Below, one piece after another: positions 6,610 through 14,770 of a DNA stretch of 64,000 nucleotides; the stretch's first letter is position 1; every line of letters starts with the position of its first letter. Origin of the DNA: Leptolyngbyaceae cyanobacterium (GTDB lineage Bacteria; Cyanobacteriota; Cyanobacteriia; Cyanobacteriales; Aerosakkonemataceae); contig DATNQN010000072.1 of the NCBI GenBank assembly GCA_036703985.1, positions 1 through 64,000 on the forward strand, in the 5' to 3' direction. A program made the translations under genes and the position numbers. The notes below the pieces were generated by a model, which was not told the origin of the DNA, made no database searches, and saw only the letters and a program-made list of their open reading frames with translations.

Positions 6610-7740
6610 TCAACTCCCCGATACTCGTCGCAAACCCCGCAACCAACGGTAAGGATAATAAAAGGGTACTAGAAGCGAATGAGGAATGCGATAGCGATGC
6701 TGCATATACTCAAAAGTGGGAAATAAAGTATCCCAAATAATCCGGAAACGCTGACGCCAATCTTTAGCACCTGCCACATCATCAAATAAACGTAAAGCCA
6801 TAGTTTGATGTTGCCAGAGATAAGTTCTTACTTCCTCTCGTGAAGGTTTTAAATTTCGTAATTTATCGATAACTTCTACCGGAATAGGCACTTTCCAATC
6901 ATCAAATAATTGAATTAGTATTTCTTTAACAGACAAAGCCAAATCATATTCTTTAGTCTTATTTATAATTTCTTGCCAATCTATTTCTTTTTGATACAAA
7001 TCAATTACTTTCGCCACATCATATAACCACAGCACACTTTCGCCTCCATGATGTAGCATTAAATGAGCGCATAAGTAAACAATTTGCGCTTCTAAACCCA
7101 AAACCATTGCAGGTGTTTGATTAACTTTAATTGACAAAGAAGTTTGCCAAAACCAATCTTTATAAAAAGTACGTTGATAATAAATTGGTGCAATTAATCG
7201 CCAATGCAAATCAATATAAGTATCAACTAATCCCCGTTGATAAAAAATCTCTTCATTGCGAAATTCTTCTGTAAAACCAACTTGCATATCTATGCCAGTT
7301 GGATGATAACCTAACTCAGCTAAAATTTGCCTAGTTAGCGATAAATCTTCTGGATGAATAAGTAAGTCTAGATCGCTCATTGGGCGTGCTGCAATATCAC
7401 CGTAAACTATTTCAGCTAAAGCAGCACCTTTAAGCACGATCGTATTAACACCTGCCAATCTTAATTTATCGAGTATTTTAGCTAATTCTTTTAGTAATAA
7501 AGCGTTACGGCAACCATGATAATAATAAGAATTACGCCATTTATCTTCTACGGATATAGGAACTATATTCTTTCCTTTGCTCAGATGATAAAGTAGCGGG
7601 GCTAAAGATTCGCGATCGATAATACGTTGCAAATTATCCCAGTCTAAATTATCAGAAGCAGCTATTTCCCGTGCTGATTCTAATGCTGTTTCATCCCAGT
7701 TACTACGGAGAATGCAACTGATTAGAAGAGAATTTTTCAT
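6610..7740 (-). CDS. Nucleotidyltransferase family protein of the lasso cluster
   Basis: 376 residues from ATG 7740, two bases after the stop of the exporter gene; a GTG at 7770 would overlap it. The core NT-fold signature is clear: LKGAALAEIVYGD, then the metal-binding S-D-L-D-L-L-I, followed by a helical region rich in Trp and His (LHWRL, LCAHLMLHHGG). This is the family often called NTP_transf_5 and is a recurrent companion of HPr-kinase-like genes in lasso clusters. As I recall, in the Bacillus pseudomycoidin pathway such a protein adds sugar to a phosphorylated C-terminal Ser. A similar transfer onto the product here is inference. It is the last gene of the operon. Confidence 0.8.
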   Translation of the reverse strand: MKNSLLISCILRSNWDETALESAREIAASDNLDWDNLQRIIDRESLAPLLYHLSKGKNIVPISVEDKWRNSYYYHGCRNALLLKELAKILDKLRLAGVNTIVLKGAALAEIVYGDIAARPMSDLDLLIHPEDLSLTRQILAELGYHPTGIDMQVGFTEEFRNEEIFYQRGLVDTYIDLHWRLIAPIYYQRTFYKDWFWQTSLSIKVNQTPAMVLGLEAQIVYLCAHLMLHHGGESVLWLYDVAKVIDLYQKEIDWQEIINKTKEYDLALSVKEILIQLFDDWKVPIPVEVIDKLRNLKPSREEVRTYLWQHQTMALRLFDDVAGAKDWRQRFRIIWDTLFPTFEYMQHRYRIPHSLLVPFYYPYRWLRGLRRVSGS

Positions 7741-7742
7741 TG

Positions 7743-9605
7743 TTAATTTTGCTGCATTTGGCTTTTCCACGATCGAGCATATCGCCCGCCTAACGTCAAT
7801 AGCTCATGATGACATCCAGATTCTACAATTTGACCTTTTTCCATGACGTGAATAATATCAGCACGTCTGGCGATCGTAAAACGATGAGTAATAATAATAG
7901 CAGTGCGATCGGCAGCTAACTGACAAAACCTATCCATCCAATCTGCCTCCGCCCAAGAATCCATTGCGCTCGTTGGTTCATCTAGTATAATTAAAGCAGC
8001 CTGACGCAAAAAAGCACGAGCTAAAGCAATCCTTTGCCATTCACCACCGCTTAATTCCGTTCCACCTTCAAACAATTTACCTAACAAAGTATCGTAACCT
8101 TGGGGCAAACGGGCAACAATTTCTTTCGCACCCGCTGCTTCTGCCGCCATATTAATATCAGATAAACCAGGTAACGCAGTTAGATCGCTAAGCGCAATAT
8201 TTTCACCAACAGTAGCATTATAATCTACTGGTTTTTGGAATAAAACTGTAATCAATCGCCGCAAATTTTGAATTGGTAGATCGCGCAGATCGATACCATC
8301 CCAAGTTATCATACCTTCTTGCGGATCGTACAAGCGGCAAAGCAATTTCAGTAGAGTACTTTTACCTGCACCATTTGCACCAACGATCGCAACAATCTTG
8401 CCAGCTGGAATCGTAAAATTAAAATTAGTTAAAGCTGTTTTCCCGCTACCAGGATAACCAAAACTAACATTGTGAAAACGAATCTCTTTTTTTAAATTAG
8501 TTGGTACAGCTAAAGGTTGCGGAGAATCTACTAATTGTGGTTGCAATTCTAGAAAATCAAAAAGATTACCTAAAAACAGCATATTACTATAAACTTGTCC
8601 TACATTTTCCAGCAGACTTCGCATTACCCCTTGTCCTCTTTCAAAAGCTTGGTAAAATAAAGCTAAGTCTCCTAAACTAAACCGCCTCTGCCAAACTTTC
8701 CAAACCATCCAAGCCATTGCCACTGCGGTAATTAAAAGCGCGATCGCACTTGCACCCAAATTAGCTAAACTCTCATTCTTCGCTAATTTTATTTTTTCCA
8801 ACCTTAACTTTTGTCGCAATCTTTGATAAGAAGATTTAAAATATTCTCCCAATCCAAATACTCGTAACTCCGCCGCACTTTCAGCTTCCGTCAGTAACCA
8901 ATAATAATACCAACTGCGGCGTTCATCAGCAGTAGTTCGCAACCACCATTGATAATTCTCAGTACTATATCGCAAAATCACATAAAAAGCAGGCAAAGTA
9001 CTAATTACCAATGCCACTGGTAACCAAATATTAAATTGAGTTACCACGGCTGCCATTGCTACCAAAGTAATCGTATTTTGCAGTAAACTCCCGCTATTTT
9101 CCAGTAAATTTATCGGACGAAAATAAGCATCTTGACGAACGCGATGTAAGCGATCGTAATATTCTGGCAACTCATAAAAAGCATAATCAACTGTAATAGA
9201 CTTTTCATGAATTAAAACACTAATATAATCTCTTACTAATTCCGATTGAACGGTGCGAACCCAAGTAAGTAAACTACCTAATAACTGAGTTAATAATAAA
9301 ATAACACCCATCAAGGCAACCAGCATTAAAGTAGATCCTAAACTTCCCTCCTTTCCTCCTATTAATATAGATAAATTACCAGAAGAATTATCCACATTCA
9401 AAGCTGCAACTAAACTATCTACTAATTGTTGAGTTAAATAAACTGTAGCAACAGGTAATAATCCTTGTATTACTAATAAAACACTCCAAGCAATTGTCCA
9501 ATTTTTCGCAGAAGCCCATACTAAGGCAATCGTTTTGGGTAAATACGGTAACTGACTTAAACAATTTTGTAGCTTATTCTTGATAAAATAAAATTTAACA
9601 GTCAT
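7743..9605 (-). CDS. Lasso peptide ABC exporter (D protein)
   Basis: 620 residues, a fused half-transporter. Residues 1-340 are the membrane domain with about six helices (for example near 35-60, 95-120, 175-210, 285-305). The nucleotide-binding domain has Walker A GANGAGKST, a Q-loop (LFQKPVDY), signature LSGGEWQRIALARAF, Walker B LIILDEPTSAMD and H-loop ITHRF. No peptidase C39 domain is present, as expected when a separate B2 protease cleaves the leader. It should dimerise and export the mature peptide, giving self-immunity. ATG 9605 is 25 bases from the methyltransferase stop, and its own stop nearly touches the next gene, so it is operonic. Confidence 0.92.
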   Translation of the reverse strand: MTVKFYFIKNKLQNCLSQLPYLPKTIALVWASAKNWTIAWSVLLVIQGLLPVATVYLTQQLVDSLVAALNVDNSSGNLSILIGGKEGSLGSTLMLVALMGVILLLTQLLGSLLTWVRTVQSELVRDYISVLIHEKSITVDYAFYELPEYYDRLHRVRQDAYFRPINLLENSGSLLQNTITLVAMAAVVTQFNIWLPVALVISTLPAFYVILRYSTENYQWWLRTTADERRSWYYYWLLTEAESAAELRVFGLGEYFKSSYQRLRQKLRLEKIKLAKNESLANLGASAIALLITAVAMAWMVWKVWQRRFSLGDLALFYQAFERGQGVMRSLLENVGQVYSNMLFLGNLFDFLELQPQLVDSPQPLAVPTNLKKEIRFHNVSFGYPGSGKTALTNFNFTIPAGKIVAIVGANGAGKSTLLKLLCRLYDPQEGMITWDGIDLRDLPIQNLRRLITVLFQKPVDYNATVGENIALSDLTALPGLSDINMAAEAAGAKEIVARLPQGYDTLLGKLFEGGTELSGGEWQRIALARAFLRQAALIILDEPTSAMDSWAEADWMDRFCQLAADRTAIIITHRFTIARRADIIHVMEKGQIVESGCHHELLTLGGRYARSWKSQMQQN

Positions 9606-9630: not shown

Positions 9631-10782
9631 TCAACTATATCTTCTAGATAGTTCCGTAACTCGCTTTAAGGTATCGTGCCAACTGACAAAACGGGTGGGA
9701 AATTGTTCCCATACCATACTAGCAATATCGCCTATCGTCTTCCCGCTACTCATCAAATTCAAAATTAGCCGATCGATTTCTCCTTCTTCATTGATTTTCG
9801 GTACGTAGTTAGCAGCACTTTTACCCAATTGTTGCAGAGATACAGGCATCCCGAAAAAAGTTGACTGCTGAAACTTTGCCTTAACTTTTTTTGGATTTCC
9901 CCGATCTAAAATACAAGTATTCCATCGCCAAATATAATCATCGCCCACTAAATTAGCTTGTAAAGTAACGGAAACTGTATCGCCAATTGCCAAGGAAACA
10001 GGTGTTAACCAGGGAAGAAAACCCATGCCATAAACCAATTCAGGCATACTTGGGGCGTTGGAAAAACCAATCCCTTCTGCTAAAATTGCATCAAACCAAA
10101 TACTTAATCCATGTGCTGTGCCATTGCGGGTTACGATCCAATTTAATTGGGCGCTAACGTCAGGGCTGTTGATAGTTGTATAGTCGAGAGTTACCCAAGA
10201 TTGAGGTGTTGTTAAAAGTTGTTCTGAATTTATTTTACCTTTACTCCAATTATTAAGCACAATTTGCCGCACTATTGCCATGTTTAAACCGTAGGCGTTG
10301 TTTTCCCAGACATCGACAATGGGGCTGTACAATTCGGGCGCTTCTACAACTGCTGCCCACAAAATATCTCGTTGAGGAATTAATATCCCATCGGGAGACA
10401 GCAAGCGTTTTCTAGCATCAATGATTACCGGAATATGGGATTTTAGTAAAGGTATAGTACCGCGTAAATCTGATATAACAATATCAACTAATTCTGGCAA
10501 TCTAACATTAGTTGAAAATTGTTGAATAAATTGAATGCGATCGCTATATCTATTTATATTGGCTATCTTTTTTCCTACTTCAATCGCATCGCTTGGTTCA
10601 ATAGCATAAACTTTTTTAGCACCAAACTGACAAGCAAGTAAGGCAAAAATTCCCGTTCCCGTACCAATATCTAGTACAATTGAATTCGGCTCGATCGCGG
10701 CTTGTAATGCTTTATAGTAAGCATCCATACGAACACGATCGGCAATCATATTGCCATAACCAAAGATACTATACATTTTCAT
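9631..10782 (-). CDS. PRMT-fold SAM-dependent methyltransferase with RRE-like C-terminal tail
   Basis: 383 residues. Residues about 5-300 match the protein arginine methyltransferase architecture. There is an N-terminal YGNMI..RVRMDAYY helix, SAM motif I VLDIGTGTGIFALLA at 36-50 and the acidic ribose contact AIEPSD. The post-I strand DIVISDLRG (101-108), the RKRLLSPDGILIP segment and a beta-barrel follow. The PRMT double-E loop is degenerate: Asp replaces the first Glu in SDLRG and no second Glu is evident, so arginine specificity is uncertain. Residues about 325-383 (GEIDRLILNLMSSGKTIGDIA, FPTRFVSWHDTL) resemble the helical half of PqqD-like leader-recognition domains. It lies between kinase and exporter in the lasso operon. 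The predicted core has one Arg inside the ring. Modification of that Arg is inference. Confidence 0.78.
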   Translation of the reverse strand: MKMYSIFGYGNMIADRVRMDAYYKALQAAIEPNSIVLDIGTGTGIFALLACQFGAKKVYAIEPSDAIEVGKKIANINRYSDRIQFIQQFSTNVRLPELVDIVISDLRGTIPLLKSHIPVIIDARKRLLSPDGILIPQRDILWAAVVEAPELYSPIVDVWENNAYGLNMAIVRQIVLNNWSKGKINSEQLLTTPQSWVTLDYTTINSPDVSAQLNWIVTRNGTAHGLSIWFDAILAEGIGFSNAPSMPELVYGMGFLPWLTPVSLAIGDTVSVTLQANLVGDDYIWRWNTCILDRGNPKKVKAKFQQSTFFGMPVSLQQLGKSAANYVPKINEEGEIDRLILNLMSSGKTIGDIASMVWEQFPTRFVSWHDTLKRVTELSRRYS

Positions 10783-10850: not shown

Positions 10851-11837
10851 TTATGTAACTTGATAAACTTTTTGAAAATCTTCTAAAATTAGTTGGCAAA
10901 GTTTGGGTAAATAAGCCGTTTTTTGGTTGGGAATCACTTTTTTAACTGTTACTTTATTGACTATATCGCTCAACAAATCAAACTCTTTGGCACGCATATC
11001 TTTGTTTAACAAATTATTCATATAAGTGTTTTTTACCAAAGAGATTAAAGCGGTGTGATTAGGTATCATTTCTACCCAAGGTGCTTCTAAAGAGGGAGAG
11101 CGATCGCCTAAAATATAGATAGCTGTCAAAAGTAATGGTTCTTGCTGAAATCGGTAATCTTTTTGGGTTAAATCTAAGTAACGTTTATCCCAATTTGGTG
11201 TCAGACATGGTAAAATATCGGGCTTACCATAAAGAGCTTGAACAGATGTAGGCCATAGACGCAAACGGGGATAAGCAGGCTGTACCCAAAATTTACCATC
11301 TCGATCCAACAGTGCCACCACATCATCTGCCAACACTGCCACACCAGATTTTGCCAAAGCAGCTGCCGTCGTCGATTTCCCAGCGCCTCCTGGCCCAACT
11401 ATGGCCATCGCTTGATTGCCAATCGCTACCGCACTAGCGTGCAAGCAGACTACACCCCGCAGACGCAACACGAACCCCAATACTGGCCCAAGCAAATAAG
11501 TTGCCGTATCCTCCAACGTTAAATTATCCGGCCAAATTGACCAAATTTCCGTGCCTGTTTGGTTAACGATAAACTGAGTACGATCGCAATAAATAATCTG
11601 AAAATAAGCCCCATCCATTAATTTCCATATCGTCATCACGGGATGATTGTCTTTATCCACATAAGGACTGACGTACCACACCCTTGATGAAACTTGAGAA
11701 TGTTCGCTTAACCAAGATGGTGTAACATCTAACCATATTTGTACATCTGCTTCCCAGCTATTACTCAAAGCTAGTAATCCCGGAATAGGCAAATTTGAAT
11801 TAAGATGCAGGCCAAATACACGATAACTAAAATGCAC
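10851..11837 (-). CDS. HPr-kinase-like lasso peptide kinase (K protein)
   Basis: 328 residues, cytosolic. The C-terminal HprK/P domain has LHASAVAIG (His133), the P-loop GPGGAGKST at 148-156, and the acidic pair in LADDVVALL (Asp171, Asp172). It lacks the full catalytic and regulatory features of genuine HPr kinase/phosphorylase, as is normal for the RiPP-associated group. Characterised relatives (paeninodin ThcoK type) phosphorylate the side chain of a C-terminal Ser on the precursor. The precursor here ends Ser-Gly-Gly, so Ser50 (core Ser21) is the closest candidate. It follows the precursor gene by 152 bases, which hold a small hairpin. Confidence 0.87.
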   Translation of the reverse strand: MHFSYRVFGLHLNSNLPIPGLLALSNSWEADVQIWLDVTPSWLSEHSQVSSRVWYVSPYVDKDNHPVMTIWKLMDGAYFQIIYCDRTQFIVNQTGTEIWSIWPDNLTLEDTATYLLGPVLGFVLRLRGVVCLHASAVAIGNQAMAIVGPGGAGKSTTAAALAKSGVAVLADDVVALLDRDGKFWVQPAYPRLRLWPTSVQALYGKPDILPCLTPNWDKRYLDLTQKDYRFQQEPLLLTAIYILGDRSPSLEAPWVEMIPNHTALISLVKNTYMNNLLNKDMRAKEFDLLSDIVNKVTVKKVIPNQKTAYLPKLCQLILEDFQKVYQVT

Positions 11838-11989: not shown

Positions 11990-12148
11990 CTATCCACCAC
12001 TTTTAAAAGTAGGATTTTGCGGGTTAGCCGGACTGTCAATATTTGACCTACCATTACCTCCCTGCGTCATCTCTCGTATGTCGCCGTAAGCTACCAGCGT
12101 AGGGCTGTGATATGCTTTTTTCTTTGGTGTTTGATTATTCGATCGCAT
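11990..12148 (-). CDS. Lasso peptide precursor (A), 52 residues
   Basis: ATG at 12148, with AGGAG at 12156-12160 as ribosome site, 13 bases after the cyclase stop. The leader obeys the lasso rule YxxPxLxxxGxxxxxTx exactly: Tyr13, Pro16, Leu18, Gly22, Thr28, Gln29. Cleavage after Gln29 leaves a 23-residue core. It starts G-G-N-G-R-S-N-I-D, which would form the ring, and continues S-P-A-N-P-Q-N-P-T-F-K-S-G-G as loop and tail. Asp38 (core position 9) is the only acidic residue in the core, so a Gly1-Asp9 isopeptide giving a 9-residue ring is unambiguous. Phe19 and Lys20 are candidate steric plugs. The hand-summed monoisotopic mass of the unmodified lasso is about 2253.05 Da. The gene is too short for routine ORF calls. 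Its place after the cyclase rather than first is less usual. Confidence 0.93.
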   Translation of the reverse strand: MRSNNQTPKKKAYHSPTLVAYGDIREMTQGGNGRSNIDSPANPQNPTFKSGG

Positions 12149-12161
12149 AATATTTCTCCTG

Positions 12162-13997
12162 TTAGCAGTTAATAGTTTCTAATTGTTGTAACCAATAAGC
12201 AAGACTCAGGGGACGGATATTAATCCAAACTTCACTATTTTCAGTTCTCCTTTCGGAAATAGATCTTAAAACATCTAAATTAATATATTCTGCCATCGCT
12301 GGTGAAAATTCCCATCTATTTAGCCAATTTTCTTGAGTTCCCTCCAAAATTTGTACCAATGGGTCACCAGCTAAGAAAGCTTTTGGACGCTGACGAACGG
12401 TTTCCGGTAAACTTCCCCGCATCGCTACCCTAACTAATTGTTTATTGACAAACCAAGGTATCGGTGGAATTGCCAACAAATAATTTACCAATCGCAAGTC
12501 AAAAAATGGATGTCTTACCTCAACTGGAAAACCCGTCACCCCCGGATCGTAACTTTCAAAAAAAGAAGGCCAAGTCGATGCTACCATCGCATCATATGCT
12601 TCCGATCGAATAGGATGAGAAGGGGTACTCGTACTGGTTAGTTTTTCCCAACGCGATCGCAAATCCAAACGACTTGCCAAATCTCCATTTAACCATTCAG
12701 GATAACTAGGACGCCAAGGACGTGCCAGCCCCAACCACCGCTTAACTTGAGTACGCAAACCGATAGCAGGTAGGCGACTATTCGATCGCAAATACTGCCA
12801 GATACCCCGGGCTAAACTTTCCCATTGCCAACTTTTGAGCAAATCGAAAAAGTAAGAAGCCGAAGCATACAAAACCGGATCGCCACCATATCCAGTCAAC
12901 ACCACTCGGCTGTAATTGGCAACTTCTTTAAATTTATCCACTAAAATCGCCAAAAACGGGTTATTCACGGGCTCCGGCAAATACCATTCCGGTTTGTCCC
13001 ACCGATCGAATAACTGGTAGTCATCCGCCACCAAATAATCAATCGGCATCCCTAAAGCTTCAGCTACCAATCCTGAATAGTAACGCTCTCGATCGGGAAT
13101 TAACTTATCGTAGACGATCGTATAAGCCCGCAAGTCAAAATTCACATATTTTTCTGAGCATATTTTCCCAGCCACAGCAGCGACAGTGGTAGAGTCCAAT
13201 CCCCCACTCATAAAGACACCAGCTTTATCAGTTCTCAGCCTATCCGCCACCGCGATTTCCATTAACTCTTGAAAATGCTCCACATAGTCATTTGCTTGTT
13301 GATAGCGGATATAGCCATCTACAGGTAATTGCCAATAACGAGTTAATTGTAAATTTTTATCCGTAGCTATTAAATAGTATGCTGGCGGCAAGCGATGAAT
13401 ATCTGTAAAAGCAGTTGTATCTAATTGCTGATTGCCATCAAACAGCAAAAAATCGGCAATAGCTAAGTCATTTAGCTGATTCGATACCTTAGGATGAAAT
13501 TTCAGACAATTTAGCGTATTGCTAAAAATCAGACAGTTTTCCACCAGCGCGTAATAAAAAGGTTTGACGCCAAAATGATCTCTAGCGCAAAATAATCGCT
13601 GCTTTCTGTTATCCCAAATCACAAAAGCAAAGTCACCCAACAGATATTTAACGCAATCTTCTCCCCAAACATCGTAAGCATTCAGGATCAGTTCTACATC
13701 TGTTGCCTTTTCCAGACTCCTACACCCTTTAGCTTGTAACTTTTCGATTAATTCCCTTCGACTATCGATCCGTACATCCGCCGCAATCCAAACTCGATCG
13801 TCCAAGCTAAAAGGTTGCCGCTCTAACCTAGATTCGTCAGTCGTTGCTAGTAGCGCATGACCGAAACCTACATTACCCGCGACCCAAATCTGCCGAGCAT
13901 CTGGCCCTCGATAGGCCATAAACTCAGTCATTTCTTGTAATAAATCGCGATCGACTGGCTCCCCATCTAGGTTAATCATACCCACAATGCCGCTCAT
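12162..13997 (-). CDS. Lasso cyclase (C), asparagine-synthetase homologue
   Basis: 611 residues. The N-terminal Ntn-type glutaminase fold begins MSGIVGMIN, with Ser where active glutaminases have the catalytic Cys2, so ammonia release is lost, as is typical of lasso C proteins. The C-terminal ATP-pyrophosphatase domain has the PP-loop SGGLDSTT near residue 265. It activates the Asp side chain of the core as an AMP ester so that the Gly1 amine can close the macrolactam. The ATG overlaps the B2 stop by 4 bases (ATGA), showing translational coupling. The precursor follows after 13 bases. Confidence 0.93.
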   Translation of the reverse strand: MSGIVGMINLDGEPVDRDLLQEMTEFMAYRGPDARQIWVAGNVGFGHALLATTDESRLERQPFSLDDRVWIAADVRIDSRRELIEKLQAKGCRSLEKATDVELILNAYDVWGEDCVKYLLGDFAFVIWDNRKQRLFCARDHFGVKPFYYALVENCLIFSNTLNCLKFHPKVSNQLNDLAIADFLLFDGNQQLDTTAFTDIHRLPPAYYLIATDKNLQLTRYWQLPVDGYIRYQQANDYVEHFQELMEIAVADRLRTDKAGVFMSGGLDSTTVAAVAGKICSEKYVNFDLRAYTIVYDKLIPDRERYYSGLVAEALGMPIDYLVADDYQLFDRWDKPEWYLPEPVNNPFLAILVDKFKEVANYSRVVLTGYGGDPVLYASASYFFDLLKSWQWESLARGIWQYLRSNSRLPAIGLRTQVKRWLGLARPWRPSYPEWLNGDLASRLDLRSRWEKLTSTSTPSHPIRSEAYDAMVASTWPSFFESYDPGVTGFPVEVRHPFFDLRLVNYLLAIPPIPWFVNKQLVRVAMRGSLPETVRQRPKAFLAGDPLVQILEGTQENWLNRWEFSPAMAEYINLDVLRSISERRTENSEVWINIRPLSLAYWLQQLETINC

Positions 13998-14476
13998 AAC
14001 GCTTTTACCCCGAAAGGCTCGATCGCGCTGCTAAAAGCCGCAAAATGTCGATCGATATCATTGCGATCGTTTAAAACCTTACCTGCGTATTCCACCCAAG
14101 CATGAGCCTCAAACCGTCCCGCTCGCTTGCGTACACCAATTCGCAAATCGCTCTCCATACCTTGAGTACGCAGTAACCACCACAAAACCAACGACCTTTG
14201 CAAGCAATTCGGTCGGTAAAAGCCATATCTGCTGGCTATACTTACCATTCGTACAGTTATATCTGCTTGGCTCCTACAAACACCAGATGCGTCCACCGGA
14301 ATTAGTTGCGAATTATACTTACAACTCGCTCTCCCCATTGTCGAGTATAAACTTTTAAACCCCCAAAATTTTATCCACAAAGCTGTTAGCGGTAATAAAA
14401 ATAACGCCCGTGTCAGCAGTTGCAACTCTGCTCTAGAGAGCTTCTTTAACTTGCCCCAACTACTGACTATCAACAT
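13994..14476 (-). CDS. Lasso leader peptidase (B2), transglutaminase-like
   Basis: 160 residues. The catalytic triad of the Transglut_core3 family is visible: Cys91 in RPNCLQRSLVLWWLL, His125 in EAHAWVEY and Asp137 in VLNDRND. The N-terminal about 60 residues are a variable helical extension with a hydrophobic stretch near 20-36. It cleaves the leader one residue after the conserved Thr, in complex with B1. The start at 14476 overlaps the B1 stop by 17 bases, and its own stop overlaps the cyclase start. The split B1/B2 arrangement is the usual one outside proteobacteria. Confidence 0.92.
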   Translation of the reverse strand: MLIVSSWGKLKKLSRAELQLLTRALFLLPLTALWIKFWGFKSLYSTMGRASCKYNSQLIPVDASGVCRSQADITVRMVSIASRYGFYRPNCLQRSLVLWWLLRTQGMESDLRIGVRKRAGRFEAHAWVEYAGKVLNDRNDIDRHFAAFSSAIEPFGVKAL

Positions 14477-14726
14477 TCACCAATCCGTGTTCTACAAGGT
14501 TTTCGATTAATTTATACAAATCATTACGTAACTGTTCCGGAACTACATCATATTCGCTCAGCAAAACTTCGTAGGCATCCTCGATCGATTCGCAACTAGA
14601 AAGAACCTCCCACATTCGAGTGCCAACCTCATCTAAACCGAAATAACGTTCGCTCTTCAGATTGAGAATTACCGATTCCCCATCTAATTCCCGAAACAAA
14701 ACATCCTCTGCGATAGAAATCCTCAT
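14460..14726 (-). CDS. Lasso RRE protein (B1), PqqD-like
   Basis: 88 residues from ATG 14726 (MRISIAEDV); a TTG at 14744 would add six residues. The winged-helix RiPP recognition element pattern is clear. It has a beta hairpin LFRELDGESVILNLKSERYFGLDEVG, then helices TRMWEVLSSCESIEDAYEVLLSEY and LRNDLYKLIENLVEHGLV. It binds the Tyr/Pro/Leu region of the leader and presents it to B2. It is the first gene of the operon. The upstream 100 bases hold a 14-bp palindrome and the terminator of the preceding ferredoxin operon, so the cluster promoter must lie between 14727 and about 14830. Confidence 0.9.
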   Translation of the reverse strand: MRISIAEDVLFRELDGESVILNLKSERYFGLDEVGTRMWEVLSSCESIEDAYEVLLSEYDVVPEQLRNDLYKLIENLVEHGLVNVDSQ

Positions 14727-14770
14727 TTCAAAGGAAAGTGTCAAAATTAAGCTAACCTCTCAAATAAATC

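Follow-up and report, generated by a model that had tools for sequence, protein, structure and literature searches.

What does the 52-residue open reading frame between a lasso cyclase gene and a kinase gene in the 64,000-nt stretch analysed here (the window) encode, and what would the neighbouring genes do to its product? The initial annotation had proposed a lasso peptide precursor, with a core released after Gln29 and closed into a Gly1-Asp9 ring. The genome that holds the window has two adjacent PsaA/PsaB genes and is cyanobacterial. Papers cited by PMC number are represented here by passages of their text.

The precursor gene and its cluster

The open reading frame (in the following called A) has 53 codons including the stop and encodes the 52-amino-acid peptide MRSNNQTPKKKAYHSPTLVAYGDIREMTQGGNGRSNIDSPANPQNPTFKSGG on the minus strand (12148-11990). 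It belongs to a set of eight close genes that run in one direction on the minus strand from 14744 to 6610, in the order B1, B2, C, A, K, M, D, N. The features are:

14460..14744, minus strand: B1, PqqD-like leader-binding protein (RRE); PF05402, 58.9 bits, cut-off 23.4
13994..14476, minus strand: B2, leader peptidase; NF033537 lasso_biosyn_B2, 88.6 bits, cut-off 33
12162..13997, minus strand: C, lasso cyclase (asparagine-synthase family); PF00733, 111.3 bits, cut-off 21
12156..12160, minus strand: Shine-Dalgarno sequence AGGAG, 7 nt before the precursor ATG; read from the sequence
11990..12148, minus strand: A, lasso precursor; leader residues 1-29, proposed core residues 30-52, GGNGRSNIDSPANPQNPTFKSGG
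10851..11837, minus strand: K, HPr-kinase-like peptide kinase; PF07475, E 1.5e-4, 21.8 bits, below the cut-off of 33.3
9631..10782, minus strand: M, PRMT-like methyltransferase, with a C-terminal three-helix part; PF22528 PRMT_C, 41.3 bits, cut-off 27
7743..9605, minus strand: D, ABC exporter; PF00005, 121.6 bits, cut-off 25; membrane part inferred
6610..7770, minus strand: N, nucleotidyltransferase-family protein; PF14907, 181.8 bits, cut-off 31.2

A lies 13 nt downstream of the cyclase gene and upstream of K, and the AGGAG sits within the 13-nt gap between the cyclase stop codon and the precursor ATG, as expected from the earlier description of a gene with its own ribosome site at this place. 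The leader conforms to YxxPxLxxxGxxxxxTx, the rule invoked at the outset, with Thr at -2 of the proposed core, and scores 21.6 bits against the NCBIfam lasso leader model NF033521 (cut-off 19). The cyanobacterial lasso model NF033528 (lasso_cyano, NCBIfam) gave E 3e-7 and 30.3 bits, below its cut-off of 33. The sole acidic residue of the proposed core is the Asp at position 9, inside the interval of positions 7-9 expected for a ring acid; the tail contains three Pro and ends in Ser-Gly-Gly, all as first read. The computed mass of the cyclised core, 2253.052 Da, agrees with the neutral mass near 2253.05 Da predicted before. One match to A was found in its own genome at E ≤ 0.001. A PDB search with the proposed core had no match at E ≤ 1, and the strings GGNGRSNID and YHSPTLVAYGDIREMT did not occur in the literature searched. 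Leader, neighbouring genes and conservation agree in identifying A, at the level of sequence, as a real lasso precursor. This kind of precursor is already known, but this peptide and its combination of enzymes may be undescribed; what is new lies in the tailoring genes, the motif in the tail and the spacing of the ring.

B1, B2, C, M, D and N pass the cut-offs of their general Pfam families, and B2 passes its lasso model as well. The lasso-specific B1 model NF033536 reached 58.3 bits (NCBIfam; cut-off 80), and the best NCBIfam match of C was the lasso cyclase model NF033535 with E 1.5e-126 and 423.6 bits (cut-off 525). The lasso_cyano, lasso B1, lasso cyclase and kinase models thus all stay below their curated cut-offs, which counts against the explanation that we prefer. 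No hairpin is indicated between precursor and kinase (11989-11838), where folding was no better than that of shuffled sequences (z 0.88; 162 of 200 shuffles did as well).

All six same-family genomes in which the cyclase was found retain the full order B1-B2-C-A-K-M-D-N, and related clusters carry precursors at the same location as A; in three other same-family genomes, no cyclase was detected at 1e-100 and no M at 1e-20. Among 291 genomes of the order, 31 have a cyclase match at E ≤ 1e-100 and 34 a methyltransferase match at E ≤ 1e-20, with 26 of the latter reaching 1e-50. By hand count, the cyclase is present in 23 of these 26 genomes versus 8 of the 265 others. A profile scan with the M alignment returned at least 68 loci, the closest among the matches listed having 48% and 46% identity, and among plasmids a single record, from Halopiger with 30% identity, matched the cyclase at E ≤ 1e-60. 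From its retention among relatives, the cluster of A is conserved and probably functional.

Some genomes may hold remains of such clusters. G492 and G501 (genus g184) have short methyltransferase fragments and gave no hit for the kinase at E ≤ 1e-30, possibly remnants of a lost cluster. L116 (G388:C120), a related cluster, has fragmented matches to kinase and cyclase and a lasso-leader open reading frame lacking the [KR][ST] tail described below, possibly a case of decay.

Comparison of 29 precursors

Precursors were sought in other genomes, as had been suggested for A, and 29 were compared: that of the window, 27 out of 26 further genomes of the order, and a single one on L123, a contig of a metagenome-assembled genome labelled Acidobacteria. 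The relatives' precursors were found by a leader pattern, so leader conservation among the 29 is partly built in; core and tail lie outside the pattern. Because the genomes are related, simple probabilities overstate the evidence. Left out were G388, whose kinase and cyclase matches are fragmented and whose lasso-leader open reading frame lacks [KR][ST], G418 and G516, which yielded no precursor, and the second locus of L096, whose two precursors have neither type of tail. Six Ser-ending precursors, precursors from the NF033528 search alone, the cyclase-less loci L211-L214, L139 (a distant cluster without the motif) and L122 (M and N only) were excluded as well. In G433 the precursor adjoins its cyclase and not its kinase. 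The L123 contig (L123:989-5365) has B2, C, A, K and M with a precursor ending in KTA, which would extend the family beyond Cyanobacteria or reflect a binning error.

Tail motif and kinase

All 29 precursors have [K/R]-[S/T] 1-4 residues from the C-terminus. Shuffling the tails (2000 rounds, 0-5 residues allowed) produced the motif in 4.1 of the 29 on average and never in more than 11. In A, the motif consists of Lys20 and Ser21 of the core, the Ser being third from the end.

A tree of 34 kinases separated the 28 from genomes or contigs with [KR][ST] tails from the six beside Ser-ending precursors, with a support of 100/100. The kinase of G455 had been assigned to the Ser group before its Ser-ending precursor was seen, and G213, G426 and G437 have two kinases, one per kind, with the matching precursor type next to each. 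The pairing of tail and kinase is not universal: G388 combines a kinase match in pieces with a lasso-leader open reading frame of neither tail, the second locus of L096 has a partly matching kinase beside precursors of neither tail, and so have the cyclase-less loci L211-L214 with their kinases; all these kinases stand outside the tree.

Characterised lasso kinases differ in their target. PadeK and PsmK phosphorylate a C-terminal Ser (PMC9266682, PMC8498205, in the passages available), while BsfK modifies Ser3 of the core, and the passages of the same report list a His, a P-loop GKS and a DD pair as lasso kinase residues (PMC10368454). Reading K for these residues, we found an upstream His, the P-loop GPGGAGKS and a DD pair, as in an HPr-kinase homologue of a phosphorylated lasso system of the paeninodin/pseudomycoidin type, with a Pfam score below the cut-off and a match to HprK structures only at E 0.066. 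The C-terminal Ser acceptor of such systems is absent from A, whose tail ends in S-G-G. Given the motif in 29/29 tails and the separation of the kinases, the phosphate is therefore likelier on Ser21 than at the terminus. We infer that K modifies the Ser or Thr of the tail motif, which would be Ser21 in the core of A. The pairing of kinase branch with tail type offers a testable code for the residue that a lasso kinase modifies.

The methyltransferase

In a profile search against the PDB, M matched PRMT8 with E 3.5e-40, and the PRMT match covers residues 8-272. The double-E loop and the THW motif are the motifs of arginine catalysis in PRMTs. At the double-E loop M has SDLRG, the second Glu being K in the window and mostly Q in relatives, and at the THW position it has LVY or LIY. 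M thus shows the PRMT fold by profile and departs from both catalytic motifs, which makes arginine methylation by M doubtful. No PIMT-family model was among its Pfam matches at E ≤ 0.001. An AlphaFold model (4 sequences) was of low confidence as a whole, with a mean pLDDT of 61.6, and three helices at the C-terminus came out better. By eye, the C-terminal part of M looks like the helical half of PqqD, but an RRE domain at the C-terminus of M was rejected, as hhalign against 20 B1 proteins gave a probability of 0.5%; no PqqD match in M appeared in Pfam or NCBIfam at E ≤ 10, and only DUF4777 (E 0.25) for L122. At L094, L117 and L120 (G404, G468, G499), methyltransferases of ~320-340 residues lack the C-terminal three-helix part.

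Lys is the motif residue in 22 of the 24 precursors from genomes or contigs with M, G426 and G499 having Arg, and Arg stands there in all five precursors of the four genomes that gave no M match at E ≤ 1e-5. Fisher's test gave 0.0007, and 0.010 within family f14 alone, the genomes being related. On the kinase tree, there are two independent pairs on well-supported branches and three on all branches; over 200 random pairings, Lys/Arg agreed in direction in 1.8 pairs on average and in no case ran the opposite way. Since two to three independent pairs cannot reach significance, for which at least six would be needed, lysine methylation by M is only a lead: M may be linked to the tail Lys, with too few independent losses for proof.

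A pathway otherwise as we propose, with M acting on the C-terminal carboxylate, an Asn or Arg5 instead of the tail Lys, has only slightly less than an even chance. The PRMT-like fold and the Arg5 in the ring of the A core would suit it, as would the D-N seen after the ring acid in many of the relatives whose precursor adjoins M, and the motif Arg in the two genomes with M named above. Against these sites, the core of A has D-S and not D-N after its ring acid, the altered PRMT motifs count against arginine, and the Lys/Arg distribution favours the tail Lys. Arg5 as first-choice acceptor was set aside, as it is unconserved among the 29 and the ring sequence is peculiar to the core of A.

Some metanodin clusters contain methyltransferases, of a type left unstated in the passages available (PMC12670498). 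In the literature searched, largely without subscription papers and including passages of PMC10368454 and PMC12670498, we found no description of a PRMT-like lasso methyltransferase. If true, a PRMT-like enzyme in lasso tailoring would be a kind of methylation absent from these literature passages.

Ring size and cleavage site

Counted from Thr(-2), 12 of the 29 precursors have the ring acid at position 9, 16 have it at position 10 and one at position 11, so that each has an Asp at core position 9-11. Further acids are present in some precursors; among the 16 with the acid at 10, only G116 has another at positions 7-9 and 15 have none there. On the kinase tree, the distinction between ring acid 9 and 10 or more requires at least 8 changes.

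According to passages of a published review, lasso rings comprise 7-9 residues (PMC9266682), and published lasso leaders place Thr at -2, Ile/Val being a reported exception (PMC10368454, in part). At Thr+2, 28 of the 29 precursors carry Gly, Ala, Ser or Asn, and all 16 with the acid at 10 carry Ser, Asn or Ala; metanodin has been proposed to start with Asn (PMC12670498, passage). This small residue together with the Thr(-2) rule makes Gly30 residue 1 and Asp38 residue 9, and favours a cut after Thr-X in the acid-9 and acid-10 groups alike. The cut after Gln29 proposed initially for A fits both observations. The Gly1-Asp9 ring fared less clearly: it is the best reading for A from its sequence, but the position of the ring acid is not fixed in the family, and ring and lasso fold of A therefore remain predictions.

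A leader cut later than after Thr-X would keep the family's rings within the published range. With a cut one residue later, the ring in the window would be Gly1-Asp8 and 28 of the 29 rings would be 8 or 9 long; with a cut three residues later, at Asn32 in A, 29/29 would be 7-9 long. The small residue is not unique to Thr+2, because Thr+4 is also Gly, Ala, Ser or Asn in 24/29. We consider such a cut unlikely: only 13/29 have one of these residues at Thr+3, compared with 28/29 at Thr+2, the exceptions at Thr+4 include two Pro, two Thr and one Val, and the Thr(-2) rule of published leaders speaks against it.

With the cut after Thr-X, 16/29 precursors need a ring of ten residues, so either the Thr(-2) rule or the 7-9 range fails in this family. 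In the literature searched, largely without subscription papers and including passages of PMC9266682, PMC8498205 and PMC13352647, we found no description of a ring of ten residues. The 16 precursors with a predicted 10-residue ring offer a direct test of both the 7-9 limit and the Thr(-2) rule.

Loci without a cyclase

At L214:9682-12987 in the window's own genome (G000:C91), we found B1, B2, two short open reading frames with lasso leaders, a kinase and N, and no lasso cyclase match in 19 kb. The tails after Thr are QMPMQIAASQMPR and LALSQVVDN. These genes possibly make linear phosphopeptides with a lasso peptidase. L211, L212 and L213 (G278, G101, G030) have a lasso leader, B1, B2, a kinase, an exporter and N, with no cyclase match in 19 kb, and two glycosyltransferase-type genes each, family-checked in L211 only. 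Their cores (QQVGGSGGFxTT...) have no acid in the ring region, and there are asparagine-synthase-family matches elsewhere in these genomes.

Such loci give some ground for a modified peptide that is made on a lasso-type leader but never threaded, a phospho-glyco peptide of branched or linear form, yet for A this is very unlikely, as its cluster has a full-length cyclase, at the same place in relatives, and the Asp at core position 9-11 is kept in 29/29.

Proposed pathway

Gene order, family membership, conservation and tail motif were observed directly for this cluster; the enzymatic steps below are modelled on characterised relatives, except for the methylation site, which is a guess. We hold it to be fairly probable that A is a lasso precursor matured by B1, B2 and C, phosphorylated on Ser21 by K, glycosylated by N, methylated by M and exported by D. 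B1 would bind the YxxPxL leader of A, B2 would cleave after Gln29, and C would form a bond between the Gly30 amine and the Asp38 side chain, which closes a ring of 9 residues and leaves a tail of 14. K would phosphorylate core Ser21 in the [K/R]-[S/T] motif, either ahead of ring closure or at about that stage. N would then add a sugar to the phosphate, presumably acting like PsmN in pseudomycoidin. M may methylate the peptide, Lys20 being our best guess for the site, and D would export the product. The more far-reaching reading, in which the family closes 9- and 10-residue rings and a PRMT-fold enzyme methylates a lysine next to a phosphorylated, sugar-bearing tail Ser or Thr, seems rather unlikely at present.

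Comparison with known systems

The cyanobacterial lasso peptides of NF033528 share leader and ring region with A, the alignment covering residues 10-38. A stays under the cut-off of this model, and the tails of the best-scoring members (L002, L003) differ and lack the [K/R]-[S/T] end.

Methylation of lasso peptides is described in passages of PMC9266682 for StspM, acting on the C-terminal carboxyl, and for the PIMT homologues TceM and LihM, acting on Asp. M of this cluster shares the presumed substrate class and differs in being PRMT-like.

The Bradymonas system BsfA/BsfK resembles the one described here in combining kinase and N in one lasso cluster, with a kinase aided by B1 (PMC10368454, in part). 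It differs in the target, core Ser3, and in a leader with Ile(-2).

Pseudomycoidin likewise combines lasso genes with an HPr-kinase homologue, PsmK, and an annotated nucleotidyltransferase, PsmN (PMC9266682, PMC8498205, in the passages available; PsmK and PsmN are compared by description). Its phosphate sits on the C-terminal Ser, whereas A has a Ser third from the end within [K/R]-[S/T], and the cluster of A adds a PRMT-like methyltransferase.
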